A DNA stretch of 64,000 bases from contig NZ_BAAAWN010000001.1 of NCBI RefSeq assembly GCF_039535095.1, positions 124,001 through 188,000 of the forward strand. Reading direction: 5' to 3'. The notes under the pieces were generated by a model. The model did not search any database. It was not told the DNA's origin and saw nothing but the letters and a program-made list of their open reading frames with translations. The stretch's first letter is position 1. Each line of letters starts with the position of its first letter. Below are positions 37,649 to 53,188 of the stretch, piece by piece. The DNA is from Arthrobacter ramosus. Its GTDB lineage: Bacteria > Actinomycetota > Actinomycetes > Actinomycetales > Micrococcaceae. The position numbers and the translations under genes were made by a program.

Positions 37649-37962
37649 GCACTACCCTGTCATCCCCCAAGAGATTGACCATTGCCTCAGTCCCCATCGT
37701 GGGCATGATCATCACACCGTTCCTGCCTTTCGTTTCCACACCAACGCTATGGCTTGGCCTCCCTTCGGCGATCGTCTGGATGGGCCTCATGATCGTCGCC
37801 ACGATCGTCGCACTGCAGATTATCGAGCGCACGTACCTTCGCGAAGGCGGTGCCGAACTCGACCGTCTTGAAGCCGAGCAAAGCGCCTTGGCAGGCGCCG
37901 CTACAACGAATGGCGCCGCTACCAATAGGCCGGCCACCATCACCGAAACGGAGGCCTACTGA
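37645..37962 (+). CDS. DUF3311-type small membrane subunit of symporter
   Basis: This 105-residue protein has two hydrophobic helices (IASVPIVGMIITPFLPFV and GLPSAIVWMGLMIVATIVAL) and a polar Ala/Thr-rich tail. Small DUF3311-like proteins are regularly encoded just before sodium:solute symporters and probably form a complex with them. Here the start overlaps the amidase stop (ATGA) and the stop overlaps the symporter start (TGATG), which fits a strict pairing. Confidence 0.75.
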   Translation: MSTTLSSPKRLTIASVPIVGMIITPFLPFVSTPTLWLGLPSAIVWMGLMIVATIVALQIIERTYLREGGAELDRLEAEQSALAGAATTNGAATNRPATITETEAY

Positions 37963-39431
37963 TGCTTACAGTCGCCATCATCATCGGAATTGTCGGCATC
38001 GGCGCCCTCGGTATCGTGGGCCGCCGACGCCAGACAGAACTCTCCAGCTGGACCGTCGGCAAGCGGGATTTGCCCCGCTGGACCAGCTGGTTCCTCCAAG
38101 CGGGCGAGTCGCTGACCACGTTCAGCTTCCTCGGCCTCGCCGGAATCGCCTTCGGTGGCGGCGTTGCCGCACTCTTCGCCGTCGCCTATCTGACCATCAA
38201 CTGCATCGTCCAGTATTTCGTGATTCCCCGGCAGCGAGCGCTGGGTGCGAACCGCGGCTACCTGACCATGGCGGACTTCTTCCAGGACCGATTCAACAGC
38301 AAGGCCCTGGGCAAGACCGTGGCCCTCGTCGGTGCGGTGTTCCTCATCCCGTACCTGCAACTGCAAATCACCGGGCTTGGATTGATCGTCCAGCTCGCTA
38401 CCGGGAGCGAATCGGCGCGTGGTTACAGCATGGCCGTGGCCAGCGTGCTGGTGGTCGTCTTCGTCATCTGGGCGGGCATCCGGGGACTCGCCAAGGTGGC
38501 TGTTTTCAAGGACTTCGCCATGCTGGCCGCCCTGGTCATCATGTTGGCCGGTGTGGTCGCCGGCATTGGCGGCATCCCGGATATCTTCGCCAAAGTCATG
38601 GATACCGCCCCGAGCTACCTCACCATCAGCCGTCCGGGCTTTGACGCCACCTTCTGGGTGACCTCGGTGATCGTGACAAGCATCGGCGCCGGGCTCAACA
38701 CCTTCCCGCACTTGTGGCCGCCGGTTCTTGCCGCGAAAAGCGGTGCCGTGCTGCGGGACAACGTCAAATGGCTTGCGGTCTACCAGTTCCTCCTGCTCAT
38801 CCCGATCACCGCCGGAATTGCCGCCACCCTGGTCCTCGATCCGAAGACCAAGAGCAACTTCGTCCTCTTGGGCATCGCCCAGCACACCTTGCCGGAGCCA
38901 CTGATCGCGATCATTGCCATCGGCGGCGCAGCGGCTGCCATGGTTCCGGCGGGCGCGATCGCGATGGGCATTTCCTCGCTTGTCTCGAACAACCTGCTGT
39001 CCGTGAAGAACCCCAAGCTGCGGTTCCGGATCAACCACGTGGTGGTCGCCATCGCCGTCGGACTGGCTCTGGCTTTCGGGCTCGCAAAATCGGACATCGG
39101 AGCGCTGCTCCTGCTCACGTACGGTGGCCTCACCCAGCTCGCTCCCGCCGTCGCCATCGCGATCGGCCGCAAGGTGCGCATCGGCGCCGTTCCGGTCAAC
39201 CTGGGGATCATCGTCGGCACGCTCACAGTAGCTGTCATCACCTTCGGCAACGTCCCCACGGGCGGCGTCGATTCGGGCCTCATTTCCCTCGCCCCGAACC
39301 TTGTGGTGCTCGCCGTCGCTGAACTTATCCGCCGTCGTCGCGCGGACGACGTCGGGCCAGTTCCGGAGCATCTTGCGGTTGATGGACACAGCGCGGTTGA
39401 AGGGCACAGCACCGTAGGAGTCGAAGCATGA
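37962..39431 (+). CDS. Sodium:solute symporter family transporter
   Basis: This 489-residue SSS-family carrier has about 13 predicted helices. Family features are SWTVGKRDLPRWTSWFLQAGE near the N-terminus, GGYLTMADFFQDRF-like RGYLTMADFFQDRF, and the central MVPAGAIAMGISSLVSNNLL motif. It should import a carboxylate, amide or amino-acid-like compound with Na+. It is coupled to the small subunit before it and overlaps the CoA-transferase gene after it (ATGA). The solute is probably the substrate of the amidase in the same operon. Confidence 0.88.
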   Translation: MLTVAIIIGIVGIGALGIVGRRRQTELSSWTVGKRDLPRWTSWFLQAGESLTTFSFLGLAGIAFGGGVAALFAVAYLTINCIVQYFVIPRQRALGANRGYLTMADFFQDRFNSKALGKTVALVGAVFLIPYLQLQITGLGLIVQLATGSESARGYSMAVASVLVVVFVIWAGIRGLAKVAVFKDFAMLAALVIMLAGVVAGIGGIPDIFAKVMDTAPSYLTISRPGFDATFWVTSVIVTSIGAGLNTFPHLWPPVLAAKSGAVLRDNVKWLAVYQFLLLIPITAGIAATLVLDPKTKSNFVLLGIAQHTLPEPLIAIIAIGGAAAAMVPAGAIAMGISSLVSNNLLSVKNPKLRFRINHVVVAIAVGLALAFGLAKSDIGALLLLTYGGLTQLAPAVAIAIGRKVRIGAVPVNLGIIVGTLTVAVITFGNVPTGGVDSGLISLAPNLVVLAVAELIRRRRADDVGPVPEHLAVDGHSAVEGHSTVGVEA

Positions 39432-40687
39432 CGCAGCCCGGATTCCCCGACCACAAGCAACACCACGAGGGACCGCTCGTCGGCAAGCTCGTCGTCGACC
39501 TCTCCCGCGCCCTTGCCGGTCCGCACGCCGGCATGATGCTCGGTGACCTCGGCGCCCGCGTCATCAAGGTGGAGAATCCCGACGGCGGTGATGACAGCCG
39601 CGGCTGGGGGCCGCCGTTCGTCGATACTCCTGAGGGCCGCGAGTCAACGTACTTCCTTTCGTGCAACCGGAATAAGGAGTCCATCCGGCTTGACCTCAAG
39701 GCGGCAGACGGCAAGGCCGCGTTGCGGGAACTGCTGCGGCGGGCCGACGTCCTCGTGGAGAACTTCCGTCCGGGAACCCTGGACCGGCTGGGTTTTGATC
39801 CCAAGAGCCTCGAAGAGTTGAATCCGCGGCTGGTGGTTCTCGCCATCAGTGGTTTCGGCCACGACGGTCCGGAGGGGAACCGTGCCGGCTACGACCAGAT
39901 TGCCCAGGGCGAAGCCGGGCTGATGTCCCTCACGGGTTCAGGTCCCGGGGACCCGCAGCGCGTTGGCGTACCGATTGGCGATGTCCTGGCTGGAATCCAC
40001 GGCGCCTACGGTGTGCTGGCGGCTCTCCTGGAGCGTGAGCGGACGGGCCGTGGCCAGATGGTCCGCACGTCCCTGTTGTCCTCGATCGTCAGCGTTCTTG
40101 CTTTCCAGGGCACGCGTTGGACGGTGGGCGGCGAGGTTCCGCAGGCCCAAGGCAACCACCATCCTTCGATCGCGCCATATGGGCTGTTCCGCTGCGCGGG
40201 AGGCTCGGTGCAGATTGCCGTGGGATCCGAAGGTTTGTGGCGCCGCTTCGCGGAAGAATTCGGACTGTCCGTTCGGGACGAACGCTGGCGCGACAATCAG
40301 TCCCGCGTGGCCCACCGGGCCGAGCTGGCCGAAGCGATCGAAGCCGCATTCTCGGAGTCCGACGCCGAAGAGCTGCTCGCGCGGCTCGAAGCGGCCGGGG
40401 TGCCCGGAGGCCGGGTCCGTTCCCTGGACGAAGTCTTTGGGTGGGAACAGGCGCGGAGCCAACACCTCGCCGTCGAACTCGAGCACCCCACGCTGGGACG
40501 CATCGAGGTCCCGGGATCGCCGCTGCGCTTCTTCCAACCGGACGGCACCGAGACCACCAGGTTGCGGCACACTGCGCCGCCGAGGCTCGGAGAGCACGAC
40601 GACGCCGTCCGGGCGTGGCTTGACAGCGCAGGGTTGCCCGGCGACGCATTGCCCGGCGACGCATTAATTGGTTCGGGGGCGTCGTGA
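39428..40687 (+). CDS. CaiB/BaiF (class III) CoA-transferase
   Basis: This 419-residue family III CoA-transferase has VVDLSRALAGPHAGMMLGDLGARVIKVE at the N-terminus. SRGWGPPF and KAALRELLRRADVLVENFRPGTLDRLG follow, and GYDQIAQGEAGLMSLTG carries the catalytic Asp (about residue 159). It moves CoA between acids through an aspartyl-CoA anhydride. In this operon it probably activates the acid formed by the amidase. The C-terminus carries a 15-base direct repeat (TTGCCCGGCGACGCA, twice at about 40634-40663), giving a duplicated LPGDA. Confidence 0.9.
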   Translation: MTQPGFPDHKQHHEGPLVGKLVVDLSRALAGPHAGMMLGDLGARVIKVENPDGGDDSRGWGPPFVDTPEGRESTYFLSCNRNKESIRLDLKAADGKAALRELLRRADVLVENFRPGTLDRLGFDPKSLEELNPRLVVLAISGFGHDGPEGNRAGYDQIAQGEAGLMSLTGSGPGDPQRVGVPIGDVLAGIHGAYGVLAALLERERTGRGQMVRTSLLSSIVSVLAFQGTRWTVGGEVPQAQGNHHPSIAPYGLFRCAGGSVQIAVGSEGLWRRFAEEFGLSVRDERWRDNQSRVAHRAELAEAIEAAFSESDAEELLARLEAAGVPGGRVRSLDEVFGWEQARSQHLAVELEHPTLGRIEVPGSPLRFFQPDGTETTRLRHTAPPRLGEHDDAVRAWLDSAGLPGDALPGDALIGSGAS

Positions 40688-42150
40688 CGGCGGTCGCGGA
40701 GGCCACTCGCCCGGAAGCGGCTTCCACCGGACACCGGCAGCGCCGCCTTAGCGGGGCCGAGTTTCTTGAGCAGCTCCTCGACGCCGGCAGTTTCCGGAGT
40801 TGGGGCCGGCCTGTCCCGGCGCCGCCGGGGGCGGATTCTGCCTACCTCGCGGATCTGGCCCGGGCCCGCGATCGTAGCGGTACCGACGAGTCCGTGCTCA
40901 CGGGCGAAGGGACGCTGGATGGGCAGCCCGTGGCCGTCCTGGCCAGCGAATTCGCCTTCCTCGGCGGCTCGATCGGGCGGTCCGCCGCCGAGCGGATCGT
41001 CGCAGCAATTGAAGAGGCGGGCCGACGTCGGCTGCCCCTCGTGGCCGCTCCTGCGTCAGGCGGCACCCGAATGCAGGAAGGTACCCTAGCCTTCCTGCAG
41101 ATGGTGCGGATTACCGAGGCGCTCGCGGCATACAAGCGTCTAGGGCTGCCCTATCTGGCATATCTCCGGCACCCCACCACAGGCGGCGTCTTCGCCTCGT
41201 GGGGATCGTTGGGGCACATCACCGTCGCGGAACCAGGTGGGCTGGTTGGCTTCCTGGGTCCCAAGGTCTACGCCGGACTCACTGGGCAGGAGTTTCCGGT
41301 GGGAATCCAGAGCAGCGAGCATCTTCTCGCTCGTGGAACGGTCGACGCCGTGTTGGACGCACCGGGTTTCAGGAACCTTGCCGCTGAGGTGCTGGGCATC
41401 CTCGCTGGCCGGGGGTCCTGGATCGATGCGGGGACCCCGCCGGTCACAGCTAACAGCAGCGACGACGCTTCCGCGTGGGATTCGGTCGTACTGACTCGCG
41501 ACGCCCGGCGTCCCGGGCTGGCGGAACTGCTCGACGCCGGGTTCGGCCGCCTCGTGCGCTTGCACGGCACGGGCCGTGGGGCAGCTTCGGCGAGCACCGC
41601 CGTCGTGCTGGCCGAACTCGAGGGGCGGCCCGTCGTCGTCGTTGGCCAGGACCGCGCAGCCCAGCGGGCGGGGAGCGTCCTCGACGCCGCGGGTTTGGCG
41701 CAGGCCCGCCGGGGGATGCGCCTCGCGGAGGAACTAGGGCTGCCGCTCGTGACGGTGGTGGATACTCCGGGGGCCGAGCTTTCGGTCCGGGCCGAGGAAT
41801 CCGCAATCGCGGGCGGAATCGCTGATTGCATCGCGGGAATGCTCGGACTTACGGTGCCAAGCGTTGCCGTGCTCCTCGGCGAGGGGGCCGGTGGGGGTGC
41901 GCTCGCTCTTGCGGCTGCCCGCCGCACGGTGGCGGCCGAGCACGCCTGGCTCGCGCCACTGCCGCCGGAAGGTGCCAGCATCATTGTGCACGGTGACACG
42001 TCCCTGGCGGCCGAGCTGAGTGAGCGGCAACGGATCGGAGCGCGCGCACTCTTCGAAGGTGGTGCCGTGGACGAGGTGGTAAGCGAGGGCGAGGGTTTCA
42101 TCAAGCGCCTGGTGGAAGCCGCCTCCCGGCACCTCGCCGCCCAGCTTTAA
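40684..42150 (+). CDS. Fused carboxyltransferase (AccD-AccA type)
   Basis: This 488-residue protein has two crotonase-fold carboxyltransferase halves. The AccD-like half holds LVAAPASGGTRMQEGTLAFLQM and HPTTGGVFASWGSLGHI. The AccA-like half holds LVTVVDTPGAELSVRAEESAIAGGIA and LGEGAGGGALALA. The zinc-ribbon cysteines of AccD are absent. It should carboxylate or decarboxylate an acyl-CoA with biotin carrier protein, but no biotin carboxylase or carrier gene is nearby. It must share those subunits or act as a decarboxylase. The GTG start overlaps the CoA-transferase stop; a 66-bp palindrome follows the stop directly. Confidence 0.82.
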   Translation: MTAVAEATRPEAASTGHRQRRLSGAEFLEQLLDAGSFRSWGRPVPAPPGADSAYLADLARARDRSGTDESVLTGEGTLDGQPVAVLASEFAFLGGSIGRSAAERIVAAIEEAGRRRLPLVAAPASGGTRMQEGTLAFLQMVRITEALAAYKRLGLPYLAYLRHPTTGGVFASWGSLGHITVAEPGGLVGFLGPKVYAGLTGQEFPVGIQSSEHLLARGTVDAVLDAPGFRNLAAEVLGILAGRGSWIDAGTPPVTANSSDDASAWDSVVLTRDARRPGLAELLDAGFGRLVRLHGTGRGAASASTAVVLAELEGRPVVVVGQDRAAQRAGSVLDAAGLAQARRGMRLAEELGLPLVTVVDTPGAELSVRAEESAIAGGIADCIAGMLGLTVPSVAVLLGEGAGGGALALAAARRTVAAEHAWLAPLPPEGASIIVHGDTSLAAELSERQRIGARALFEGGAVDEVVSEGEGFIKRLVEAASRHLAAQL

Positions 42151-42230: not shown

Positions 42231-43523
42231 TTAGTGCGTCAGGTCCTTGCCCTTGGTTTCGGGGATCATGAAGGCGAACGCGATTCCGATGGCCAGCAGG
42301 ATCACGGCGTAGACGTTGAACATGTTGGCCTGGCCGATGCTGCCGAGCCAGGTCTGCAAGTACGGGGCCGTCCCGCCGAAGACCGCTACGCAGATGGAGT
42401 ACGGGACGCCGACGCCCACGGTGCGGATCTTGGTCGGGAACAGCTCCGCATATACGGCCGGGACAATCGAGGCGCTGCCGGCGATGAAGAACAACATCAC
42501 GGACATCGAAACGGCCAGCTGCCACGGGGAATCCTTCAGGAGCCAGGTCATGGGGAAGTGCAGCAACGCCGCACCTGCCGAGCTCATGATCAGCACGGGC
42601 TTGCGGCCGATACGGTCGGACAGCTTGCCCCAGAACGGCAGCGCCGCGATGAACGCAATGTTTCCGATGACGCCGGCCCACAGGGCTGCTCCACGGTCCA
42701 TCTTGAGGGTGCTCGCCGCATAACTCGGCGCAACGACGCCCCAGATGTAGTAGACAACGGTGAGGCCGACGGTCAGCCCGATAACCTGCAGGGCCTGTTT
42801 GCGGTACTTGACGATCTGCGGCCACATGGGCTCGCGCTTTTCCTTGGGCACCTCGGCTTCGAATGCCTCGGTCTCCTTCATTTTGGCCCGCATGACCAAG
42901 GCGTAGATGCCCAGGGCGCCGCCCACCAGGAACGGCACGCGCCAGCCCCAGGCGTTCATGTCGGCCTTGCTCAGCACGCCGGTCAGGATGGCGCCCAGCA
43001 AGGTTCCGGCAAGGATGCCGGCGGTTCCGGAGGTGTAGATGAGGGTCGCCCAGAATCCGCGCTTTTCCTTGGGCGCCATTTCGGACAGGTACGTTTGCGA
43101 CGACGGCAGCTCGCCACCGTGGGCGAGGCCCTGGATGAGGCGGGCCACCAGCAGCATGACGGATGCCAAGGCCCCGACAGCCTGGAAGGTCGGGGCGATA
43201 CCGATCAGCAGGCTGCCGACAGCGGCGAGGCCGACGGCGAACGTCATGGACGTCTTGCGACCGATCCTGTCGCCGATCCAGCCGAAGACGAAGCCGCCGA
43301 ACGGTCGGGCCACGAATCCGACGGCGAAGATCGCCAGGGTGGAGAGAACCGCGGACGTGGGATCGGCACTGCTGAAGAGCGCGCTGGCAATGAAAGGCGA
43401 GAACGTGGCGTAGATGGCCCAGTCGTACCATTCGACGGCGTTGCCGATGCCGGTGCCGATGAGGGTTCGCAGATGGGACTTGTGAACCTGGACTGTGTCT
43501 GAAGTGCCAACGGTGGCGGTCAT
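42231..43523 (-). CDS. MHS-family MFS transporter
   Basis: This 430-residue, 12-helix metabolite:H+ symporter-like carrier has GNAVEWYDWAIYATFSPFI in helix 1. GFVFGWIGDRIGRKTSM is the loop 2-3 motif of the family, followed by RLIQGLAHGGELPSSQTYLSE. Such proteins import small carboxylates, betaines or osmolytes with protons. The ATG at 43523 was chosen because GGAG lies 8 bases upstream. It is the second gene after an M20 amidohydrolase (26-base gap), so it may import that enzyme's substrate. Confidence 0.9.
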   Translation of the reverse strand: MTATVGTSDTVQVHKSHLRTLIGTGIGNAVEWYDWAIYATFSPFIASALFSSADPTSAVLSTLAIFAVGFVARPFGGFVFGWIGDRIGRKTSMTFAVGLAAVGSLLIGIAPTFQAVGALASVMLLVARLIQGLAHGGELPSSQTYLSEMAPKEKRGFWATLIYTSGTAGILAGTLLGAILTGVLSKADMNAWGWRVPFLVGGALGIYALVMRAKMKETEAFEAEVPKEKREPMWPQIVKYRKQALQVIGLTVGLTVVYYIWGVVAPSYAASTLKMDRGAALWAGVIGNIAFIAALPFWGKLSDRIGRKPVLIMSSAGAALLHFPMTWLLKDSPWQLAVSMSVMLFFIAGSASIVPAVYAELFPTKIRTVGVGVPYSICVAVFGGTAPYLQTWLGSIGQANMFNVYAVILLAIGIAFAFMIPETKGKDLTH

Positions 43524-43549
43524 GTCTTGCTCCAAGGTTGGGGTGGGGG

Positions 43550-44770
43550 TTAGTTGCCGGCGGCGAGGGTGGCGATGCGGGAGACCGCGAGCTCTGTGTA
43601 GAGCGCCGCACCGTCGGACAGGATGCCGTCGTCGAACGTGGCGTAAGGGGAGTGGTTGAACGGTGAGGTGGTGTGGTCCACGCCCCGCGGTACGGCGCTG
43701 AGGCCCACGAAGGTTCCCGGAACTTCGGCCAGGACCCGGGAGAAATCCTCCGAGCCACTGATCGGCGTGGCCCAGCGGGAGAGCCGGGAATCGCCGAACA
43801 TGTCCGAGATGACGTTCTCGGCGGTGTGGGTCTCGTCCTCGTCAGTGACGGTCATGGGGTATTCGCCGCGGTAATCGACGTCTACTTCCAGGCCATGCGC
43901 GGAGGCAATACCCTGGAGGAGCTGCGGAATCGCGGTCATCATCCGGTCGCGGGAGGCTTCCGAGAACGTGCGGATGGTGGCTTCGAAACGCGCGGACTCG
44001 GGGATGACGTTGCGCTTGGTACCTGCCTGCAGTACGCCCACGGTCAGGACTACGGGATCGAACATGTTGAACTGCCGAGTGATCATGACCTGCAGGGCGG
44101 TCACCATTTCCGCGGCCGCAGTCACCGGGTCCTTGGCCGCGTGCGGCGCTGAGCCGTGACCGCCGGCACCGAGGACCGTGACGAAGAGTCCGTCGGAGGC
44201 GCTCATCATGACGCCCGGCTTGGTGCAGAACTGGCCATACGGTTCCAAGGAGGAGAAGACATGCATGCCGTAGGCGGCGTCAACACGGCGGCCGGCGGCG
44301 TCGAGGACGCCTTCGCGGATCATGTGGCCCGCGCCGTCGAAGCCTTCTTCGCCCGGCTGGAACATCAGGACGACGTCGCCGGCCAGCTGATCGCGTCGTT
44401 CGGCCAACAGGGTTGCGGCTCCGGCGAGCATGGACGTGTGGAGGTCGTGGCCGCAGGCGTGCATGGCGCCGTCGATCTTCGAGGAGAACTCGACGCCGGT
44501 GCGCTCCTGGACGGGAAGTCCGTCCATGTCGGCGCGGAGCAACACAGCCGGCTTCCGGGTTGAGGCGTGCGGCGCGCCGCCGCGCAAGACCGCGGTGACC
44601 GACGTCGTGCTCTCGCCAAGGGTGATTTCGTACGGGAGCCCGTCGAGCGCCTTGAGCACCTTTTCCTGGGTGCGTGGGAGATCCAGGCCGATTTCCGGTT
44701 CCTGGTGGAGCTCGTGACGGAACCGGGCGATTTCTCCCTGCATCTCTTTGGCGTCTGAGGCGATCGACAT
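43550..44770 (-). CDS. M20D amidohydrolase (hippurate/N-acyl amino acid hydrolase type)
   Basis: This 406-residue zinc hydrolase has FRHELHQEPEIGLDLPRTQ at the N-terminus. AVLLRADMDGLPV, GAMHACGHDLHTSML and FQPGEEGFDGAGHMI supply the metal ligands and catalytic Glu. Members cleave hippurate, N-acetyl amino acids and auxin conjugates. The ATG has CAGGAG 5 bases upstream. With the MFS gene after it and a divergent AsnC-type regulator, it forms an import-and-deacylate cassette. It is not close to the M20 at 8.9-10.1 kb, which belongs to another branch. Confidence 0.9.
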   Translation of the reverse strand: MSIASDAKEMQGEIARFRHELHQEPEIGLDLPRTQEKVLKALDGLPYEITLGESTTSVTAVLRGGAPHASTRKPAVLLRADMDGLPVQERTGVEFSSKIDGAMHACGHDLHTSMLAGAATLLAERRDQLAGDVVLMFQPGEEGFDGAGHMIREGVLDAAGRRVDAAYGMHVFSSLEPYGQFCTKPGVMMSASDGLFVTVLGAGGHGSAPHAAKDPVTAAAEMVTALQVMITRQFNMFDPVVLTVGVLQAGTKRNVIPESARFEATIRTFSEASRDRMMTAIPQLLQGIASAHGLEVDVDYRGEYPMTVTDEDETHTAENVISDMFGDSRLSRWATPISGSEDFSRVLAEVPGTFVGLSAVPRGVDHTTSPFNHSPYATFDDGILSDGAALYTELAVSRIATLAAGN

Positions 44771-44812
44771 CTGTTCTCCTGTTTCCTGAACGTTTGGTAG
44801 GTATCCATAGCC

Positions 44813-44837
44813 ATTGTGGAGTGATTAGCCTCACAAT
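44813..44837. promoter_or_regulatory. Inverted repeat ATTGTG-N13-CACAAT, candidate AsnC operator
   Basis: Perfect 6-base arms (44813-44818 and 44832-44837) lie in the 143-base gap between the divergent M20 gene and the AsnC-type regulator gene. Position and symmetry suit an operator serving both directions. Confidence 0.5.
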
Positions 44838-44913
44838 CTTCTAAAGCCCTGAAAAAATTCAAGATCATGCCAGAATTAACAAGAATCATGCATCACCAAG
44901 GAGAGGATCGCTG

Positions 44914-45969
44914 ATGGAACTCAGTGAAGAGGACCTCCGGCTGATCAATGCCCTCCAGATCTCGCCGCGGATCAGTTGGTCCGACGCCGCCGAGGTCCTG
45001 GACGTCCACGCAACCACGTTGGCCTCCCGATGGGACCGCCTGCGAGAGTCCGGAGCTGCCTGGACCACGGCGCACCTCATGGGCGACCCCAAGCACGCCT
45101 GCCTTGCCCTGTTGGACGTGGACTGCGAAATGCACCTCAGGCCCGAGGTCACGGCCGCGCTCGCGGCGATTCCGGAGATCATCACGGTTGAGGAGGCGGC
45201 CAGCAACCGGGACCTCATGCTCACCGTGATCACCCAGGACCTGGGCGAATTCAGCAGCCGGCTATTGCCCCAGCTCAAGGAAATCCGGGGACTCACCAAG
45301 TACCGGACCTCGCTCTGCACCCGCATCCACACAAGCGGCTATGCGTGGCGGCTCAACGTCCTGAGCCGGGCGGAGCAGCAGGCGCTGCGCGCCCTCGCCG
45401 GGCCGGAAGCGCTCAATCCGTCCGCCCCCTACGCTCAGGTCACCCCGCTGCCTGAGAGCCATATGGCACTCTTTCCGTTCCTCGCCCGGGATGGAAGGGC
45501 GTCCGCCGCGGAAATCGCACGTGCATTGGGACGTCACCCTGCCACGGTCCAGCGGCAGCTCGGCCGGGTGCTCGCGAGCCGGATGCTGTCCTTCCGCTGC
45601 GAAATCGCCCAGCAATTCTCCGGCTATCCCATGACGTGCCAGTGGTTCGCGAATGTTCCAGCAGGCCAGCATGAAGCCGCGGCCGCCGAGCTGCGGGCCG
45701 TCAGGAACGTCAGGTTCACGGCCTCCACTACCGGCAGCACCAACTTTGTGATCATCATGTGGCTGCGCTCGCTGGCCGAGGTCATGGAGATGGAACTCGC
45801 CATCCAGCAGCGGATTCCCGGCATCGAACTCGTCGAGAGCGTCGTGATGCTGAGCACGGCCAAGCGGGTCGGCTGGATGCTGAACCCGGACTCGACGGCG
45901 ACTGGCGCCGTCGTGCCGACCGCCGCCGGTGAGATGCTGCCCGCAATCGAATGGACGACGACGGCGTGA
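44914..45969 (+). CDS. Lrp/AsnC-type regulator with two repeated modules
   Basis: This 351-residue double-module AsnC regulator has HTH 1 at residues 1-45 (LSEEDLRLINALQISPRIS, LDVHATTLASRWDRLRESG) and HTH 2 near residues 180-225 (RDGRASAAEIARALGRHPATV). A ligand domain follows each. Its HTH 1 looks close to that of the regulator at 15.2-16.2 kb (both have a (A/S)RWDRLRE(S/A)G helix). It is divergent from the M20/MFS pair and has AAGGAGAGG upstream of the ATG. It probably senses the imported conjugate or the freed amino acid. Confidence 0.87.
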   Translation: MELSEEDLRLINALQISPRISWSDAAEVLDVHATTLASRWDRLRESGAAWTTAHLMGDPKHACLALLDVDCEMHLRPEVTAALAAIPEIITVEEAASNRDLMLTVITQDLGEFSSRLLPQLKEIRGLTKYRTSLCTRIHTSGYAWRLNVLSRAEQQALRALAGPEALNPSAPYAQVTPLPESHMALFPFLARDGRASAAEIARALGRHPATVQRQLGRVLASRMLSFRCEIAQQFSGYPMTCQWFANVPAGQHEAAAAELRAVRNVRFTASTTGSTNFVIIMWLRSLAEVMEMELAIQQRIPGIELVESVVMLSTAKRVGWMLNPDSTATGAVVPTAAGEMLPAIEWTTTA

Positions 45970-46004
45970 CTCACCGGGCCGGGTAGGTGTGCGGCGTCGG
46001 AGCG

Positions 46005-47435
46005 CTATCCAGGGCCTCCATATTGGAAGCTGTGATCCCAGGGATGCGCTTGCTCAAATGCCTGCGCGACGTCCAGCAATGTATCGTCAGCAAAATGCCG
46101 GCCACTGACTTGCACACCCACTGGAAGCCCGTTGCGGGTACGTCCCACCGGGATGCTGACCGAAGGCTGCCCTGTGAGGTTGGAGAGAAATGCGAACGGT
46201 GACCATTGGCGTCCGTCAGCAATTCCACAGTCTCCATCCTCGGGAAATCGCATCCCGACAGGAAATGCCGGAGTGGCTGTGGTAGGCGTTAGGAGAACGT
46301 CGTGGAGTTCACCAAACCTTCGCATGGTGTCATAGACGATCTGTCGATTCCTCCGCGCCCGTGTCAGCTCATCACCGGTCCACTGTCGATCAACAAGCTC
46401 CCGGATATCCGGAGAAACAGTCACATGATCTGCGAGTTTGCGAAGTTCCTCAAGGTCCGTGTCCATCGCCACTGTTGCCGCAAATATTTCCCGGAGATCC
46501 GGCAATGCCGGCAACTGAGGGGACGCTTCCCGGACGATCCATGACTGCCGCGAAGCCACCGCCCTAACGGCCGCCTCGACTATCTCGGCCACTTCGGAGT
46601 CAACCTCCGCCCCGGCAAGACTTGGGCTGTACCCAAGGACGAGATCTCTTTGCCGGGATGTTCCGTGTCCCATGTCCAGCGGTACGGAATGCCGATCCCG
46701 AACATCCACCCCGGCAATAACCGACATGACCAGTGCGCTGTCAGCGACTGTGCGCGTGATCGGCCCGATGCATTCAAGCGATTCCCAGCTATTTAGACCA
46801 GTTCTGAGTGGCAGGCGCGACGACGGGTACAACGGGACCACGCCGAATGTGGGCTTTAGTGCAAAAACGCCACATATGGCTGCCGGAACCCTCAAAGATC
46901 CGCCGCCATCACTACCCAGCGCTATCGATCCCATGCCCGCGGCGACGGCGGCTGCGGCACCCCCCGATGAGCCCGCCGCCGTCATGCCAACATCCCACGG
47001 GTTGCGTGTCGGGCCGAACAGCTCGTTATCTGTGACGACGCCGTATCCCAACTCTCGAGTATTCGTCTTGCCGATCAGTATGCCTCCGGCCTCGCGGAGC
47101 CTTGCCACCGAGATTTCGTCCTGATCCGGAACCCAGTCCTGATGGGCCAAACTTCCCAGTGTTGTACGCAACCCCTTTGTGGGGATGAGGTCCTTCACCG
47201 AAAATGGTACGCCGTGCAGTGGACCGGTCGGCTCCCCCGCCGCTTGCCTGCGGTCTGCGGCCCGGGCCTCATCCAATGCTTGATCATTCATGGTGACATA
47301 GGCGTTCAGCCTCGGGTTGACGTCAGCGATCCGCTCCAGGACGGCGGTGGTCAGCATTTCTGCGGACCACCGGCCTTCCCGGACTCCGTCAGCCTGTTCA
47401 ACCGCCGAGAGCTGCCAAAGGATGGCTTTTCTCAC
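46005..47435 (-). CDS. Amidase signature family amidase (complete active site)
   Basis: This 476-residue amidase has an intact triad: Lys in PFSVKDLIPT, cis-Ser in TAAGSSGGAAAAV, and nucleophile Ser in SDGGGSLRVPA. It is the last gene of a leftward operon with a hydantoinase-like enzyme and a second amidase-like protein that lacks the triad. The start is a GTG overlapping the hydantoinase stop (GTGA); longer frames run into that gene. It probably hydrolyses the ring-opened or carbamoylated product of the hydantoinase-like enzyme, but the natural substrate is unknown. Confidence 0.88.
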   Translation of the reverse strand: MRKAILWQLSAVEQADGVREGRWSAEMLTTAVLERIADVNPRLNAYVTMNDQALDEARAADRRQAAGEPTGPLHGVPFSVKDLIPTKGLRTTLGSLAHQDWVPDQDEISVARLREAGGILIGKTNTRELGYGVVTDNELFGPTRNPWDVGMTAAGSSGGAAAAVAAGMGSIALGSDGGGSLRVPAAICGVFALKPTFGVVPLYPSSRLPLRTGLNSWESLECIGPITRTVADSALVMSVIAGVDVRDRHSVPLDMGHGTSRQRDLVLGYSPSLAGAEVDSEVAEIVEAAVRAVASRQSWIVREASPQLPALPDLREIFAATVAMDTDLEELRKLADHVTVSPDIRELVDRQWTGDELTRARRNRQIVYDTMRRFGELHDVLLTPTTATPAFPVGMRFPEDGDCGIADGRQWSPFAFLSNLTGQPSVSIPVGRTRNGLPVGVQVSGRHFADDTLLDVAQAFEQAHPWDHSFQYGGPG

Positions 47436-48850
47436 GTGGCCTTCTGCCCCGGAGCCAGCTGCATGAGATTCTCGGCCTTCCTCGGCAGATAACTGCCGTA
47501 GCCAGGTTCCTGAGCCAAAGAACCGTCCACCAAGAGCGCGCGCCCACGGAGGAAGGAGTGTGTAGGCCATCCCGTAACTGAGCGGTTCTCGTAAAGGCTG
47601 TACGTCGCACCCGTGTGCTGCGTACGAGCCTGAATTGTCTCCGTCCGCTTGGGATCGATAATGACCAAATCAGCGTCGGATCCTACTTGGATTGCCCCCT
47701 TCTTGGGGTAGAGCCCATAGATTTTCGCAGGATTACTGCTCAGAACGGCAGCAAGCTCCGCCGGATCCAGGCCCCGGCGACTGACCATCTCATCAAACAT
47801 GATGGGCAGCAGGGTCTCAGTTCCAGGCGCACCGTAGGGTTCTGCGAAAATGTCTGTCGTCTCCGTCAGGCTTTCACGATCACGCGGTGCATGATCGCTT
47901 GCGACCACAGAAAGCGTTGCGTCAGAAAGTGCTTGCCAAAGACTGTCGTTGTCGAAGGCCGTCCGCAAAGGCGGCCCAACTTTCGCCAAAGGACCCCGGG
48001 CGATGAGGTCGTCATTAGTCAGGGTGAGATACTTCGGACAAGTCTCCCCCCACGCCCTCTGCCCGGCCTTCTGTGCCTCCCGCAGTGCCCGGATGGCGCC
48101 GCTCGTTGTCATATGAAGAACGTAGAGCGGGCAATCCATCACCGCGGCGTAAGTCAACGCCCTGATGGTTCCCAGATCCTCTGCTGCTGCCGGTTCCGCT
48201 GCCGCGAAATCGCTGATGGCGGTCTTGCCTGCTGCGCGGCTTCCCGCAATAAGGTGGCCGATCATCTCCCCGTCTTCAGCGTGCACCATGGCAAGGCCAC
48301 CGGCGTCGCGGATCAAACCCAAGCCGCGGAGCAAAAGATTGTCGGGCATCATGATTCCCATGTCCTTATAGGACATAAAGAACTTGACCGAGGCGCTTCC
48401 CAGCACCATCAGCTTGGGAATTTCCTTGTCCAGGTCGTGCTCAGGTCGCACAATCGTGTGAAGTCCGAAATCTATAACCGATGTACGGCTGCCTAGGTCG
48501 ATAAAATGCTCGATGGCATCCGACGGAGCCATGTCGATTGGTGCCCGAATTTGGGTAATGGCCGTTGTTACGCCTCCAAAGGCCGCGGAACGATGACTGT
48601 CCCCGATTTCATCTGAGTGATCCGTCCAGGTCCTACAATGCACATGCGAATCAATAGCGCCGGGAAGAACGATTCGATCTACGGCTGACACAACATTCTT
48701 CGCTGCCATCTGGCTTAGATCCGGTTCCACCGCGGCGATCGTTTCGCCTCGGATTCCGATATCGGCCCGTCGGGTGCCTTCAGGGGTAACGACAGTTCCG
48801 CCGACAATGACGACGTCGAAGGGTTCGATGTTGTTCACGAGCTTGTTCAC
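47432..48850 (-). CDS. Hydantoinase / allantoinase-like cyclic amidohydrolase
   Basis: This 472-residue amidohydrolase-superfamily enzyme has the binuclear metal site: HxH in DSHVHCRT, the carboxylated-Lys position in FFMSYKDMG, His in MVHAEDGE and YVLHMTTSG, and Asp in VASDHAPRD. It resembles dihydropyrimidinase, D-hydantoinase and allantoinase, which open cyclic ureides. The GTG start overlaps the stop of the amidase-like gene. No carbamoylase, allantoicase or ureidoglycolate gene is near, so a standard pyrimidine or allantoin route is not supported. The coupled amidase is the likely next step. Confidence 0.87.
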   Translation of the reverse strand: MNKLVNNIEPFDVVIVGGTVVTPEGTRRADIGIRGETIAAVEPDLSQMAAKNVVSAVDRIVLPGAIDSHVHCRTWTDHSDEIGDSHRSAAFGGVTTAITQIRAPIDMAPSDAIEHFIDLGSRTSVIDFGLHTIVRPEHDLDKEIPKLMVLGSASVKFFMSYKDMGIMMPDNLLLRGLGLIRDAGGLAMVHAEDGEMIGHLIAGSRAAGKTAISDFAAAEPAAAEDLGTIRALTYAAVMDCPLYVLHMTTSGAIRALREAQKAGQRAWGETCPKYLTLTNDDLIARGPLAKVGPPLRTAFDNDSLWQALSDATLSVVASDHAPRDRESLTETTDIFAEPYGAPGTETLLPIMFDEMVSRRGLDPAELAAVLSSNPAKIYGLYPKKGAIQVGSDADLVIIDPKRTETIQARTQHTGATYSLYENRSVTGWPTHSFLRGRALLVDGSLAQEPGYGSYLPRKAENLMQLAPGQKAT

Positions 48851-50511
48851 TTTCCGCCGGGAGTTACAGGGTGGTTCGGATGACGCAGATGCCAAGGCGT
48901 CTTGCTTTCGTACGCAGCACCAACGTAGAAGAGCATCGGTTCACTGTGCGGCGGTCCACACAACTGCAGCCCGACAGGGAGCCCTTCCTTCGTGAACCCG
49001 CACGGCACCGAGAGCGCAGGTAATCCCAAAGTGTTTAGAGGAGCCGCATAGCGCGTGTAAACAGTGTGAGCCGCTTCTTCGCCCCTGGATCCAGTACTGA
49101 TGGAAGGGGTATCCACCGGAGCTGCGGGGACCGGCGTCGTCGGCGTTACGATGACATCCACGTCCTTCCAGACTTCCGAGAATTGGCGGGCAAAGAACCC
49201 TCGCAGCCGAGCGGCCTTGAGATACTCACTTGCCATGACCCCTCTGCCTGCTTCCTGTCGCTGTCGGATGTCCTGGCCATACTCAGTCGCTCGATCCCTG
49301 ATGAGCTCCTCATGAATACTGGACGCTTCCGAAAAGGCAATAGCGCGGTGAACTGGCGCTATGGCAGCTGCGTCCGGCAATACCACCTCATGAACGGTCG
49401 CGCCTAAGCTGGCCAGCTCCGTTAGGGCCTGAAGATAAGCGCGCTGTACCCCGTCGTCCAAGCCCATCTCAAGCCAGTTAGTCGGCACGCCAATGCGTAG
49501 ATCAATCCGATCCCGGGCAGACCCACGGGCCGACGCTTCTTGACAGGACATTCCATACCTCTGCCGTGCCCGACCATCCAGAAGCATGTCCGCGATACTC
49601 GCTGTACCGCTGATTGTCTGTGCCAAAACGCCCATGGTTTCGGTAGTCCACGTAAGGGGAACTACCCCGCTTCGATCCATGACACCAAATGTCGGCTTGA
49701 GACCCACGATTCCGCAGTGTGCTGCCGGAACCCTGATTGATCCTCCCGGATCAGTGCCAACCGCAGAAGAGACGAGGCCCGCAGCAACAGCGGCTCCGGC
49801 ACCGCCCGCTGCCCCTCCGGCCGTGCGTGCCAGGTCCCAGGGGTTGCGCATGCTGCCATAGTGATCGTTCGTTCCGGTCGTTCCTGCTGCGAACTCCTGA
49901 GTATTGAGCTTGCCGGCGAGCATCGCTCCCTCGCCTTTCAACCGCTTCCAAGCCGCCGCATCTCTGTCAGGAACGAAATCACGCAGAATACTCGATCCCG
50001 CAGTCGTAGGGATCCCGGACGTGCAGACCATGTCCTGCAGTCCTATGGGGATGCCTTTCAAAAGACCGCCCGAATCACCGAAATCAGTCTGGGGATCAAG
50101 GGTTACGCGGATAAAGGCGTTGAGGGAAGAGTCCCACGTGTCTATCTGGTAGGAGAAGGCCTTTATCACCTCGGAGCGCGTCAGGACACCCCGCGCCGTA
50201 AGGTCGGCCAGCACATGTCCGGGAATCCAGGGAAGGCCGTCGAGATCTGGTTCCCGGGCTTCGTCGGTCCGGGAACCGGGGAGCTCAACCGGATCGGGCC
50301 GATAAGCCGATGCTTTCACAGGATCGAAGATCAGCGGTGGCGGGTCATCAAAGAGATTGGTAGGACCATGGCCCTGCAGGCTGGCCGCGACCGCATCCAG
50401 CAAGTCCCCGGCACCCTCTGCGGTGACGTAGTCGAGATTTGGGTTGAGCCATTGAAGTAATTCCGCTCGTGGTTTCAAGGGTCCTCGTAGTTGTTGGTTT
50501 GGCTGCTTCAC
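48847..50511 (-). CDS. Amidase-like protein lacking catalytic Lys and cis-Ser
   Basis: This 554-residue amidase-signature protein has an N-terminal extension of about 110 residues that is not part of the AS fold. The core is well conserved, but the catalytic Lys is Gln159 (PIGLQDMVC). The cis-Ser is Ala234 (AGGAAGGAG replaces GGSSGG). The nucleophile Ser258 (DPGGSIRVP) remains, 24 residues after position 234 as in active amidases. It is therefore probably not a normal amidase. It may be a scaffold, a regulatory partner of the intact amidase, or an enzyme of altered chemistry. The GTG start has GAGG 7 bases upstream and lies 7 bases after the MFS stop. Confidence 0.85.
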   Translation of the reverse strand: MKQPNQQLRGPLKPRAELLQWLNPNLDYVTAEGAGDLLDAVAASLQGHGPTNLFDDPPPLIFDPVKASAYRPDPVELPGSRTDEAREPDLDGLPWIPGHVLADLTARGVLTRSEVIKAFSYQIDTWDSSLNAFIRVTLDPQTDFGDSGGLLKGIPIGLQDMVCTSGIPTTAGSSILRDFVPDRDAAAWKRLKGEGAMLAGKLNTQEFAAGTTGTNDHYGSMRNPWDLARTAGGAAGGAGAAVAAGLVSSAVGTDPGGSIRVPAAHCGIVGLKPTFGVMDRSGVVPLTWTTETMGVLAQTISGTASIADMLLDGRARQRYGMSCQEASARGSARDRIDLRIGVPTNWLEMGLDDGVQRAYLQALTELASLGATVHEVVLPDAAAIAPVHRAIAFSEASSIHEELIRDRATEYGQDIRQRQEAGRGVMASEYLKAARLRGFFARQFSEVWKDVDVIVTPTTPVPAAPVDTPSISTGSRGEEAAHTVYTRYAAPLNTLGLPALSVPCGFTKEGLPVGLQLCGPPHSEPMLFYVGAAYESKTPWHLRHPNHPVTPGGK

Positions 50512-50518
50512 GGCTGCC

Positions 50519-51931
50519 TCAGTGCATCGGGACAAGGGACTCCTCGACCTCCTCCTCCGTGTTCTTACCGATCGGCTCCCACTTGACGATCGCAAGAGCA
50601 ATCAGACCCACCACGGGGGCGATAACAAGAGTGAACAGTGTTCCGTAAAGACCAAACGTTGCGAGAAGAATGGGTACCAGGAACAGTGCGGTAAGGCTTC
50701 CCGTGCGGTTGGCCGCTTGGGAAAGACCAGCGCCTGCACCGCGGATTTGCGTGGGGTACGACAAAGCCGAGAAGGATTGGGCAGTCGAGCCGGGGCCGAA
50801 GGTGTGGAAGCCAATGAAGAGCGCCAGGAGTGCAACCCCGAGCAGAGCCGGCAGCGACTGACCCCAGATTCCGAGAATGACGAGGATAACGCCGACAGCG
50901 CCGAAGCCAACGATAGAGAGCCTCCGCAAGCCCAGACGGTTGACCATCGAGCCGGCGAGTAGCGCTCCTACCAATCCGCATGCGTTGGCAGCAATTGACG
51001 CCGTGAGAGAAACGTCGACGCTCTTGGAGATGAAAGAGAAAACGATCAATGGCAGGTAAAAGCCGACAGAGGAGAACTGAACGCTTTGGGCCGCGCTGAT
51101 GAGGACGATGAGGATACTGCGGTTCCGGTACTGCTTGGCGAACAGCATCTTCATGACCTTGAAGAATCCGGGTGAGTCCTTAGCTTCGATGATGTTGAGT
51201 GCAGCATTCTTATCCACGGAATAAGGGCGGTTGTTCATTTTGCTCAGAATTCGTGCCGCCTCGGGAAGATCGCCGCGGTTTGCTGCCCACATGGGGCTTT
51301 CCGACATGTACTTGAACCGCAGGGCAAGGATAACGATGGCGGGTACAGCGCCCAGGCCAACTGCCCAGCGCCAGAGTTCAGTTCCGACGCCGGCGTGGTT
51401 CATGCCGAGTGCGACGAGGAGCCCGACGATGGTGGCGGCGGACCACATGGCCGCTGCCGATTCAACCCATTTGCCCTTCTTCTTCACGGCCATGAATTCA
51501 GCGAGGAATGCCATCGCGACGGGCACGTCCAGCCCGACGCCTATCCCGATGAGGAGGCGGAAAAACACGAGCGTCCCGTAGTTGGGCGATAGAGCTGCAC
51601 CGATCGTGGCGACGACGAACAGCAGTATATTCACCATGAACATCTTCAGCCGGCCGAAGCGATCGACAAAGTAGCCGCCTGAGAAGGCTCCCAGGATGGC
51701 TCCAAAGGCCATGACTGCAGTAACTAGGCCCAAAGTCTGGGCATCGAGATGGAACTCCTGCTGAAGTTGGACAGAACCTGCGCTCAGGCTGGTGAAGTCG
51801 TAGGCGTCGATAAAGAAACCGCCAAGTGCGATGGTGCCGATCATCCGCGTTCGGCCTCCCAGCCGGGGGGTCTCATTGACTTCGCGGACAACATCGTCCT
51901 TCGAGCGAATGATTGTTGCTTCAGTGGGCAT
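50519..51931 (-). CDS. MFS transporter of the sugar/aromatic acid porter type
   Basis: This 470-residue, 12-helix carrier has a 45-residue cytosolic tail. LGGFFIDAYDFTSLSAG is in helix 1, GGYFVDRFGRLKMFM is the MFS loop motif, and RLLIGIGVGLDVPVAMAFLAEF follows. It is the first gene of the leftward operon and probably imports the cyclic or amide substrate handled by the downstream hydantoinase and amidase. The ATG at 51931 was chosen for AGGAG 6 bases upstream. Family resemblance does not fix the solute. Confidence 0.88.
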   Translation of the reverse strand: MPTEATIIRSKDDVVREVNETPRLGGRTRMIGTIALGGFFIDAYDFTSLSAGSVQLQQEFHLDAQTLGLVTAVMAFGAILGAFSGGYFVDRFGRLKMFMVNILLFVVATIGAALSPNYGTLVFFRLLIGIGVGLDVPVAMAFLAEFMAVKKKGKWVESAAAMWSAATIVGLLVALGMNHAGVGTELWRWAVGLGAVPAIVILALRFKYMSESPMWAANRGDLPEAARILSKMNNRPYSVDKNAALNIIEAKDSPGFFKVMKMLFAKQYRNRSILIVLISAAQSVQFSSVGFYLPLIVFSFISKSVDVSLTASIAANACGLVGALLAGSMVNRLGLRRLSIVGFGAVGVILVILGIWGQSLPALLGVALLALFIGFHTFGPGSTAQSFSALSYPTQIRGAGAGLSQAANRTGSLTALFLVPILLATFGLYGTLFTLVIAPVVGLIALAIVKWEPIGKNTEEEVEESLVPMH

Positions 51932-52064
51932 AGCCTCTCCTATGTTTGGCCGGGCACCGTGATCAAAGGGGGAATCTGAACGGTGGCGGCTGTTTGATCT
52001 ACTGAACCGCATTACTTGCCCTCCTGGTAGCCTATTTTTCTTTCGATACCCATAGGATTTGTCT

Positions 52065-52967
52065 ATGGACCTCCGAGGGCTTCAATACTTCGTCTCCTCA
52101 GCAGATGCGGGGAGTTTCACCGCCGCGGCGGATGTGCTGTACGTCAGCCAACCGTCTCTCTCGGAGGGCATCCGGCGATTGGAACGCGAACTCGCAACGC
52201 CCCTTTTCCATCGAGTGGGCAAGGGAGTTGTGCTGACCGAGTCCGGTCTTGTTCTTCTTCCGATGGCCCGAAACCTTCTTCGGGACCTGGACGAAGCGCG
52301 CGAAGCGATGGTTGCCCTTAAGGGGCTCCAGGGCGGCCACGTTCGTCTAACCTCGCCTCCCGGTCTTAGTGTCGACCCGCTCGCCCAGATTGTTGGCAGA
52401 TTTCGCGATAAGTACCCCGCCGTAACGTTGTCCATGCTGCCTGCAGAGGACGGCAACCTGGCGACTCAAGCCGTACTGTCCGCTGCATGCGAGATCGGAA
52501 TTGTCGATCGTCAACCTCACTCCTCGGATCTGGTCGCGCACGTCATCGCCCGCAACGAGATCATGGTCATTTCACCACCAGGGACCGGACACGAGGAGCC
52601 CACGCAGATTCCTTTGGAAGCCCTCACTGGGCGCTCATTCATCAGCAGCCTCCCAGGAACCCGTACCCGAACAGTTCTGAATGAAGCGAGGGAGAGCGGG
52701 ATCGATCTCAGGATCGTCGTTGAAACTCCACACCGTGAAGCCGTTGTGCCCTTGGTCCTGGAAGGGGTCGGAAGCGCGTTTGTTACCAGCTCTGTAGCCC
52801 GGGAAGCCCAGAAACAAGGAGCCGTCGCGTCCGCGTTGCAACCACAGATCAGTTACGACGTTTACCTCATCCACCGCTCAAAGCCACTCACACGAGCGGC
52901 CGCCGCGTTCGTTAGCCATGCCCTTCTCTTAAGCTCCACCACAATGCCTCAAACACCGGAAACCTAG
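52065..52967 (+). CDS. LysR-family regulator
   Basis: This 300-residue LysR protein has a standard N-terminal HTH (LRGLQYFVSSADAGSFTAAA, LYVSQPSLSEGIRRLERELA, residues 3-50). The periplasmic-binding-like effector domain includes GHVRLTSPPGLSVDPLAQIV and VPLVLEGVGSAFVTSSVA. It is divergent from the MFS/amidase-like/hydantoinase/amidase operon by 133 bases and should activate it when the imported compound is present. The ATG was preferred to a TTG six bases upstream; AGGA lies 9 bases before it. Confidence 0.9.
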   Translation: MDLRGLQYFVSSADAGSFTAAADVLYVSQPSLSEGIRRLERELATPLFHRVGKGVVLTESGLVLLPMARNLLRDLDEAREAMVALKGLQGGHVRLTSPPGLSVDPLAQIVGRFRDKYPAVTLSMLPAEDGNLATQAVLSAACEIGIVDRQPHSSDLVAHVIARNEIMVISPPGTGHEEPTQIPLEALTGRSFISSLPGTRTRTVLNEARESGIDLRIVVETPHREAVVPLVLEGVGSAFVTSSVAREAQKQGAVASALQPQISYDVYLIHRSKPLTRAAAAFVSHALLLSSTTMPQTPET

Positions 52968-53188
52968 CGCTAACTCCTGACCCATGCCTTCAATTCTCCG
53001 CTGCCGCATTCGGGCTTTCCATAGGGAAGGTGGGTCGCTCAGTCCTAGGAAAACCAGGGAGCGGATGCCCGGGTTATCGCTCCACGACCCGCCGAACGCA
53101 CCCGCACATGGCTTGCCCTCCTGCAGGCATGGCCGCCCGCCGCGCGCCGGCTCTGTGGCCCCAAACTCGTTTGGGCTTCTAGGCTGGG
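52968..53188. other. Intergenic gap before MFS gene
   Basis: These 221 bases hold no gene I can support. The last 12 bases contain TAGGCT just before the MFS ATG, a -10-like element that would give a leaderless transcript; no ribosome site is present. The earlier part is a mixed-sequence spacer. Confidence 0.4.

Follow-up and report, generated by a model that had tools for sequence, protein, structure and literature searches.

An amidase-signature homologue without the catalytic Lys and cis-Ser, here called psAmd, is encoded within a 64,000-nucleotide stretch of Arthrobacter ramosus DNA (contig NZ_BAAAWN010000001.1, positions 124,001 to 188,000; this whole stretch is referred to as the window). 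Its gene lies on the minus strand at 48847..50511, from a GTG start at 50511 to a TGA stop at 48847 (554 aa), with GAGG placed 5 nt upstream of the start; when the same coordinates are read on the plus strand, stops interrupt them. The gene stands between one for a probable importer of the major facilitator superfamily (MFS) and one for a hydantoinase-like protein, an intact amidase is the last gene of the operon, and a divergently encoded LysR-type regulator adjoins it.

In a profile search, PF01425 matched residues 116-527 of psAmd with 317.6 bits against a curated cut-off of 27, and the nucleophile Ser is present in its GGS loop, which together place psAmd in the amidase-signature superfamily. 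It falls outside the Ser-cisSer-Lys mechanistic class, as both the Lys and the cis-Ser are missing. Alignment with solved amidases puts Gln159 (codon 50035..50037, minus strand, as are all codons given here; motif GIPIGLQDM) in the place of the catalytic Lys and Ala234 (49810..49812; GGAAGG) in that of the cis-Ser, while the nucleophile position is retained as Ser258 (49738..49740; TDPGGSIRVP). Two further residues differ: Ala235 stands for the second Ser of the GGSS motif and Pro255 (49747..49749) for the Thr of TDTGGS in the Ser loop. For comparison with Staphylococcus aureus GatA we take Lys79, Ser154 and Ser178 to be the triad and Tyr309, Arg358 and Asp425 to be pocket residues; equivalent positions were taken from printed alignments. 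As a same-genome control, PF01425 gave ten matches in the host, two of them in one protein, and the seven other PF01425 proteins (one 87-position fragment having been left out) are all complete at the triad, with the Lys, the nucleophile Ser and a Ser in the cis place. The earlier note on this DNA had described the Gln159 and Ala234 replacements with Ser258 kept, an N-terminal extension of about 110 residues, and a gene placed between an importer and a hydantoinase with an intact amidase last; each of these descriptions held, the extension being what lies ahead of the PF01425 match.

The loss is a property of a family. A protein search with psAmd scored 8000 candidates and gave 5439 matches, of which the best 120 were used; these comprise the window's own protein (P0002) and 34 relatives at 49-66% identity (P0003-P0036). 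All 34 cover every active-site stretch, and two (P0020 and P0034) lack the first N-terminal stretch. The next match, P0037, is fragmentary and covers only one of the three active-site stretches, and after it identity drops to 43% or less among the best 120. A profile search for more members found none further among its own best 120 matches. With P0037 and P0002 left out, the family alignment holds 38 rows, namely the query, the 34 database proteins and three genomic loci (L006, L015 and L016); by their tree positions, L015 is nearly the same as P0026, and L006 as P0030. None of the 38 rows has Lys at position 159 (Gln in 20, Thr in 13, Ser in 3, His in 2). Position 234 is Ala and position 255 is Pro throughout (38/38 each), and the Ser of position 235 is gone from 37 (Ala in 22, Cys in 15, Ser in 1). 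In contrast, the other fetched amidases (P0038-P0160) have Lys, Ser, Ser and Thr at these four places in 123 cases out of 123. Ser258 is retained in P0001-P0036 and in the three loci. Because the change of Lys and cis-Ser is common to all 38 sequences, neither chance nor sequencing error can account for it; orthologues with a normal triad, which the earlier note had named as the result that would speak against it, were looked for in the 37 other family sequences and not found. The family appears to hold two solutions at positions 159, 235 and 253: in a subclade of 16 rows, position 235 is occupied by Cys (15) or Ser (1), position 159 by Thr (13) or Ser (3), and the Ser loop reads PDPGGS in place of TDPGGS; the other 22 rows have Gln or His at 159 together with Ala-Ala.

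The psAmd clade has 17 positions at which one residue is at least 94% fixed and occurs in none of nine intact relatives that share an N-terminal extension (0/9). They include A234, P255, T211, T287, L311, H388, H482, Y485 and S445. Two of them, His388 (codon 49348..49350) and His482 (49066..49068), are invariant (38/38 each) and new on the same branch as the loss of Lys and cis-Ser; all nine of these nearest intact relatives have Asn at the first place and Gly at the second. His388 aligns with GatA Tyr309 in each of the five GatA alignments printed, a pair of them being of near-identical chains. The placement of His482 is less sure because the GatA alignments are gapped there, in the stretch around GatA Asp425.

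In a careful tree of 67 rows a branch supported at 100/100 separates the psAmd clade from the remainder; another, at 100/99, parts a larger group, made up of the clade and eight of the nine intact relatives with the extension, from the other rows. A quick tree gives P0038, P0054, P0065, P0078, P0122-P0124 and P0129 as the sister group, with P0130 next out. All nine carry the Lys and GGSS; these, the Thr of TDTGGS, Asn388 and Gly482 set them apart from psAmd, and the alignable N-terminal extension is common to them and psAmd (partly gapped in P0065 and P0130, and judged by alignment, without statistics). Since the extension is present in the intact relatives, it is by parsimony older than the loss of Lys and cis-Ser. 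The extension was thus rejected as a mark of the pseudo-enzyme, and the earlier note's interpretation is weaker to that extent. An origin of psAmd as a copy of the neighbouring amidase was likewise rejected, in an approximately unbiased (AU) test (p-AU 0.000865, at a cost of 24.4 log-likelihood units) in which the branch of the neighbouring amidase is a long one (2.76 in the quick tree); psAmd and the intact amidase of L016 are 32-34% identical.

The part of psAmd ahead of the PF01425 match (residues 1-115; 50167..50511, minus strand) is silent in Pfam over residues 1-79, and no Pfam match was obtained in the extension at an E value of 10 with five sequences. A profile of the extension searched against PDB chains retrieved no GatC or AtzG, the only matches being two at chance level (E 1.3). 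When residues 25-57 were compared with a GatC alignment using hhalign, the score was 14.45, above those of all 30 column shuffles (maximum 13.72), with a probability of 1.02% and an E value of 0.053. Residues 25-57 could, on this comparison, be a fused GatC/AtzG-like clamp, or nothing.

The psAmd gene is under purifying selection. Comparison of the window with L016 gives ratios of nonsynonymous to synonymous substitution rates (dN/dS) of 0.152 for psAmd, 0.192 for the amidase, 0.113 for the hydantoinase, 0.091 for the MFS gene and 0.089 for the LysR gene; between L006 and L015 the values are, in the same order, 0.175, 0.176, 0.135, 0.184 and 0.092. Conservation of the pocket was compared over 14 psAmd/amidase pairs at matched mean identity (0.64 and 0.63), using 141 columns of active-site stretches that were picked by motif, without a structure. 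In these stretches the fraction of invariant columns is 0.546 for psAmd, close to the 0.511 of the intact amidase (n=141); elsewhere the fractions are 0.246 and 0.236. Four stretches are more invariant in psAmd than in the amidase, namely those of the nucleophile Ser (0.70/0.56), Tyr309 (0.45/0.30), Arg358 (0.46/0.31) and Asp425 (0.61/0.56). Catalytic residues have been lost from a conserved gene, as in a pseudo-enzyme; release of the pocket from constraint, which is expected of a pure scaffold though not of every pseudo-enzyme, was not found.

The four genes that accompany psAmd form a conserved unit with it. The MFS gene (50519..52012, minus strand) has as its best NCBIfam match TIGR00895, for aromatic acid/H+ symport, at 148.4 of the 418.55 bits of its cut-off. 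The hydantoinase/dihydropyrimidinase-like gene (47432..48850, minus strand; 472 aa) starts with a GTG at 48850, so that its start overlaps the psAmd stop by 4 nt. Its product is under the cut-offs of the NCBIfam models listed (best TIGR02033, 348.5 of 393.25 bits), and in alignment with the D-hydantoinase 1nfg it keeps the HxH, Lys, His, His and Asp positions, which we take to be metal ligands. The intact amidase gene (46005..47435, minus strand; 476 aa) starts with a GTG at 47435 that overlaps the hydantoinase stop by 4 nt, and its product has K81, S156 and S180, none of which varies over 45 aligned rows; the full activity that the earlier note gave it is inferred from these residues. The LysR-type regulator (52059..52967, plus strand) adjoins the operon in all four loci read. 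These loci are the window, L016 (of the same genus, with psAmd 93% identical), L006 (Actinacidiphila oryziradicis) and L015 (a second Actinacidiphila locus), and in all of them the order is LysR, MFS, psAmd, hydantoinase-like protein, amidase. The 4-nt overlaps at the psAmd-hydantoinase and hydantoinase-amidase junctions are also present in 4/4, with start codons as taken. Between L006 and the window, identity is 52% for psAmd, 62% for the hydantoinase, 60% for the amidase, 65% for the MFS protein and 58% for LysR.

Ten further psAmd/amidase pairs were read as lying on the same contig, as both the size of the longest contig and the sources agree (sizes 7357, 10900, 70689, 16941, 150191, 13504, 8760, 19740, 11833 and 185585). 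Among the 37 top-listed amidase representatives (P0161-P0197, at least 55% identity), 12 appear to share a contig with psAmd, including two from Actinacidiphila; three partial matches (60-70%) further down were not counted. Conversely, psAmd entries on contigs longer than 10 kb (n=11) have a matching amidase entry in eight cases and none in three (22106, 15525 and 33379). Long contigs that have an amidase homologue but no matching psAmd entry were at first counted as cases of psAmd absence, a count that we dropped, as only the contigs of cluster representatives appear to be shown. The psAmd and amidase distance matrices of the 14 pairs correlate with r 0.94, a value reached by none of 5000 permutations, and part of this correlation is shared species history. 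A further amidase (P0240, 47% identical to the window's) agrees in contig size (10900) and source with one psAmd/amidase pair, whose cluster may hold a third amidase.

The family is rare. Using strict cut-offs (1e-140 or 1e-120) and overlapping samples that include the window's own genome where it was sampled, psAmd was found in 1/197 genomes of the host family (0/196 without the host), 1/396 of the phylum, 1/396 of the order and 2/150 of the genus. It was also found in 2/394 genomes of Streptomycetaceae, amounting to 2/35 in the genus of those two; the phylum, order and Streptomycetaceae counts scored three candidates per genome, so that misses are possible. An amidase 61% identical to the neighbouring one occurs in the same two of the 394 Streptomycetaceae genomes searched, and a third match there is 49% identical. 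A scan of genome contigs gave, among the matches listed, at least one family member (L006) and at least four loci at 29-36% identity, L007 being the one looked at further. Within 38-58 kb of the window, GC content is 57-60% over the cluster, in a low-GC block at 46000-53000, compared with 63-70% on either side. In a congener (L043, genome G063), the genes for an Lrp-type regulator, an M20 protein and an MFS protein directly adjoin an MFS-methyltransferase-DEAD-box-MBL-AKR run without the cluster between them, this flank differing by a swapped order of the MFS and methyltransferase genes. Given the low GC and the absence from the congener, the five genes look like a horizontally gained, self-contained cassette of about 7 kb. 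Plasmid searches with psAmd, the hydantoinase and the amidase gave best places that were all under 60% identity, and Rfam at its gathering threshold gave no match in 40-56 kb.

At 42231-45969 the window holds the genes for the Lrp-type regulator, an M20 amidohydrolase and an MFS protein, which are kept in four congener regions without the cluster at 67-89% identity. A second intact PF01425 amidase (L003, with the Lys and Ser-Ser) lies within 36209-42150 and adjoins a sodium:solute symporter, a family III CoA-transferase and a protein with Carboxyl_trans and ACCA matches; this stretch is possibly another amide or malonate-type catabolic block. Beside the Actinacidiphila cluster, L006 15126-19907 holds a PucR-like regulator, a permease and deaminase/amidohydrolase-like genes (names read from translations) that suggest purine or pyrimidine use, and these genes were not seen in L015 or in the window. 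Barbiturate/malonate or purine routes, as the neighbouring genes might propose them, were considered, but the window and the Actinacidiphila loci were not seen to have anything in common beyond the five genes, and we therefore claim no substrate.

By profile, psAmd shares its fold family with amidase-signature hydrolases such as GatA (4wj3, 2df4), biuret hydrolase (6c62), FAAH and allophanate hydrolase, and it resembles them in the GGS(I/L)R nucleophile loop, the GKLN and LKPT motifs, and Arg418 at the place of GatA Arg358. It differs from them in having neither the Lys nor the cis-Ser, in the near-complete loss of the second Ser (37/38), in the change of Thr to Pro, and in the new His388 and His482. 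It misses the AtzE cut-offs (NF006631, 273.5 of 461 bits; TIGR02715, 272.7 of 425.75) and the GatA equivalog cut-off (TIGR00132, 290.1 of 481.1 bits). Toc64/OM64 plant import receptors have an amidase-signature domain without amidase chemistry; they are eukaryotic, stand in an unrelated context and have lost other residues. A parallel design is found in Variovorax paradoxus (L007 8533-13550), where a hydantoinase-like gene, an amidase-signature amidase with the Lys and GGSS, and an MFS gene stand in a row. Unlike the window, L007 also has an Asp/Glu-racemase-like gene in this row (gene names being partly read from translations). Its hydantoinase and amidase share 31-34% identity with those of the window, and no psAmd-family gene was seen beside them. 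The Ser-cisSer-Lys triad is treated in PMC8393822 and PMC12636025, and in the review PMC8393822 the one match to Toc64 is in the reference list. Literature searches of partial coverage, judged by title and start of abstract, found no paper on the psAmd family or on a pseudo-enzyme of the amidase signature, and with this coverage the family may still have been published; searches of similarly partial coverage for an operon combining amidase signature and hydantoinase found nothing.

Our preferred reading, held tentatively, is that the psAmd pocket still works, no longer by Ser-cisSer-Lys amide hydrolysis. With Ser258 kept, His388, perhaps together with His482, would take over the acid-base role of the lost Lys and cis-Ser. 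The target would most plausibly be a more reactive carbonyl (an ester, thioester or lactone), or the step could be non-hydrolytic, for example an isomerisation. Judging from gene content, the MFS protein would import a cyclic ureide or imide, free or conjugated; psAmd would act on the imported compound or an early intermediate, the hydantoinase would open the ring, and the intact amidase would cleave the resulting amide or carbamoyl group. The fuller version, in which a Ser-His or His-His centre on Ser258, His388 and His482 carries out one step in an undescribed pathway for cyclic ureides or imides, encoded by a five-gene cassette moving between actinobacteria, we regard as rather unlikely in all its parts.

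Several points weigh against an altered reaction. Both the substrate and the sequence in which the steps follow are guessed. The branch fixed 17 residues, from which H388 and H482 were singled out after the fact, and Tyr309, with which His388 aligns, is presumed to line the GatA pocket. Pro255 removes a backbone NH beside what we take to be the oxyanion hole, which argues against ordinary acyl-enzyme chemistry. Position 159 drifts among Gln, Thr, Ser and His, and psAmd is less invariant than the amidase at the stretches of the Lys (0.43/0.57), GKLN (0.62/0.67) and the cis-Ser (0.48/0.52). Finally, a conserved pocket also fits a non-catalytic ligand-binding subunit.

Such a subunit is a close alternative, which we hold to be only slightly less likely: the dead pocket would bind a substrate, product or effector, and psAmd, in a complex with the amidase and/or the hydantoinase, would stabilise, regulate or channel. 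The loss of Lys and cis-Ser in all 38 rows is in its favour, as are the 4-nt overlaps at both inner junctions in all four loci and the co-inheritance with the intact amidase (the 12 of 37 representatives, the matrix correlation and the same two Streptomycetaceae genomes), but overlaps and co-inheritance are commonplace in compact operons. There is also precedent in the amidase AtzE, which has AtzG as its obligate non-catalytic partner and stands in a nitrogen-ring catabolic operon that resembles the psAmd setting (PMC6219798); GatCA is another amidase with an obligate non-catalytic small subunit. Against the subunit, psAmd is not a copy of its supposed partner. No AtzG-like match was found in the host genome, and the AtzG model was also silent in every control genome. 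A scaffold needs neither Ser258 nor newly fixed histidines, and it is because Ser258 is kept and the histidines became fixed on the same branch that we lean to an altered reaction; given the constraint on the pocket stretches, we rank a dead scaffold last in likelihood among the functional readings. Of the earlier note's interpretation, a pseudo-enzyme subunit or new chemistry, the loss and the conserved unit are supported, either outcome may hold, and the conserved pocket stretches do not suggest a pure scaffold.

Less probable again, and on balance improbable, is a plain serine hydrolase of reduced power, in which Ser258 would attack activated carbonyls such as esters without Lys or cis-Ser and with no new residues involved. 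Mutated amidase-signature enzymes without the Lys are reported to behave as esterases, and Ser258 and the GGS loop are invariant in the family; yet the changes of Thr255 to Pro and of Ser235 to Ala or Cys alter loops that serve the nucleophile, and the newly fixed histidines are left unexplained. A literature search on FAAH (partial coverage) found no mention of K142A. A decaying or assembly-damaged gene, which the rarity of psAmd in the host family might suggest, is so improbable that we reject it, along with sequencing error, given the family-wide loss and dN/dS values that resemble those of the amidase in both comparisons.

The evidence suggests that psAmd is either an enzyme put to a new use or a helper subunit, and the five genes point to an undescribed catabolic pathway on a self-contained 7-kb unit. 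Database labels on members of the family ('aspartyl-tRNA(Asn)/glutamyl-tRNA(Gln) amidotransferase subunit A', 'amidase') assign an activity that the family probably lacks. A very large enzyme family is defined by the Ser-cisSer-Lys triad; a conserved clade that has lost two of its three residues, kept the nucleophile and the pocket stretches and fixed new histidines, with intact close relatives as controls, offers a direct way to ask how a hydrolase fold changes its chemistry or turns into a regulatory subunit. If a Ser-His or His-His centre is indeed what replaced the triad, nature would here have re-invented a catalytic centre inside a single serine-hydrolase fold.

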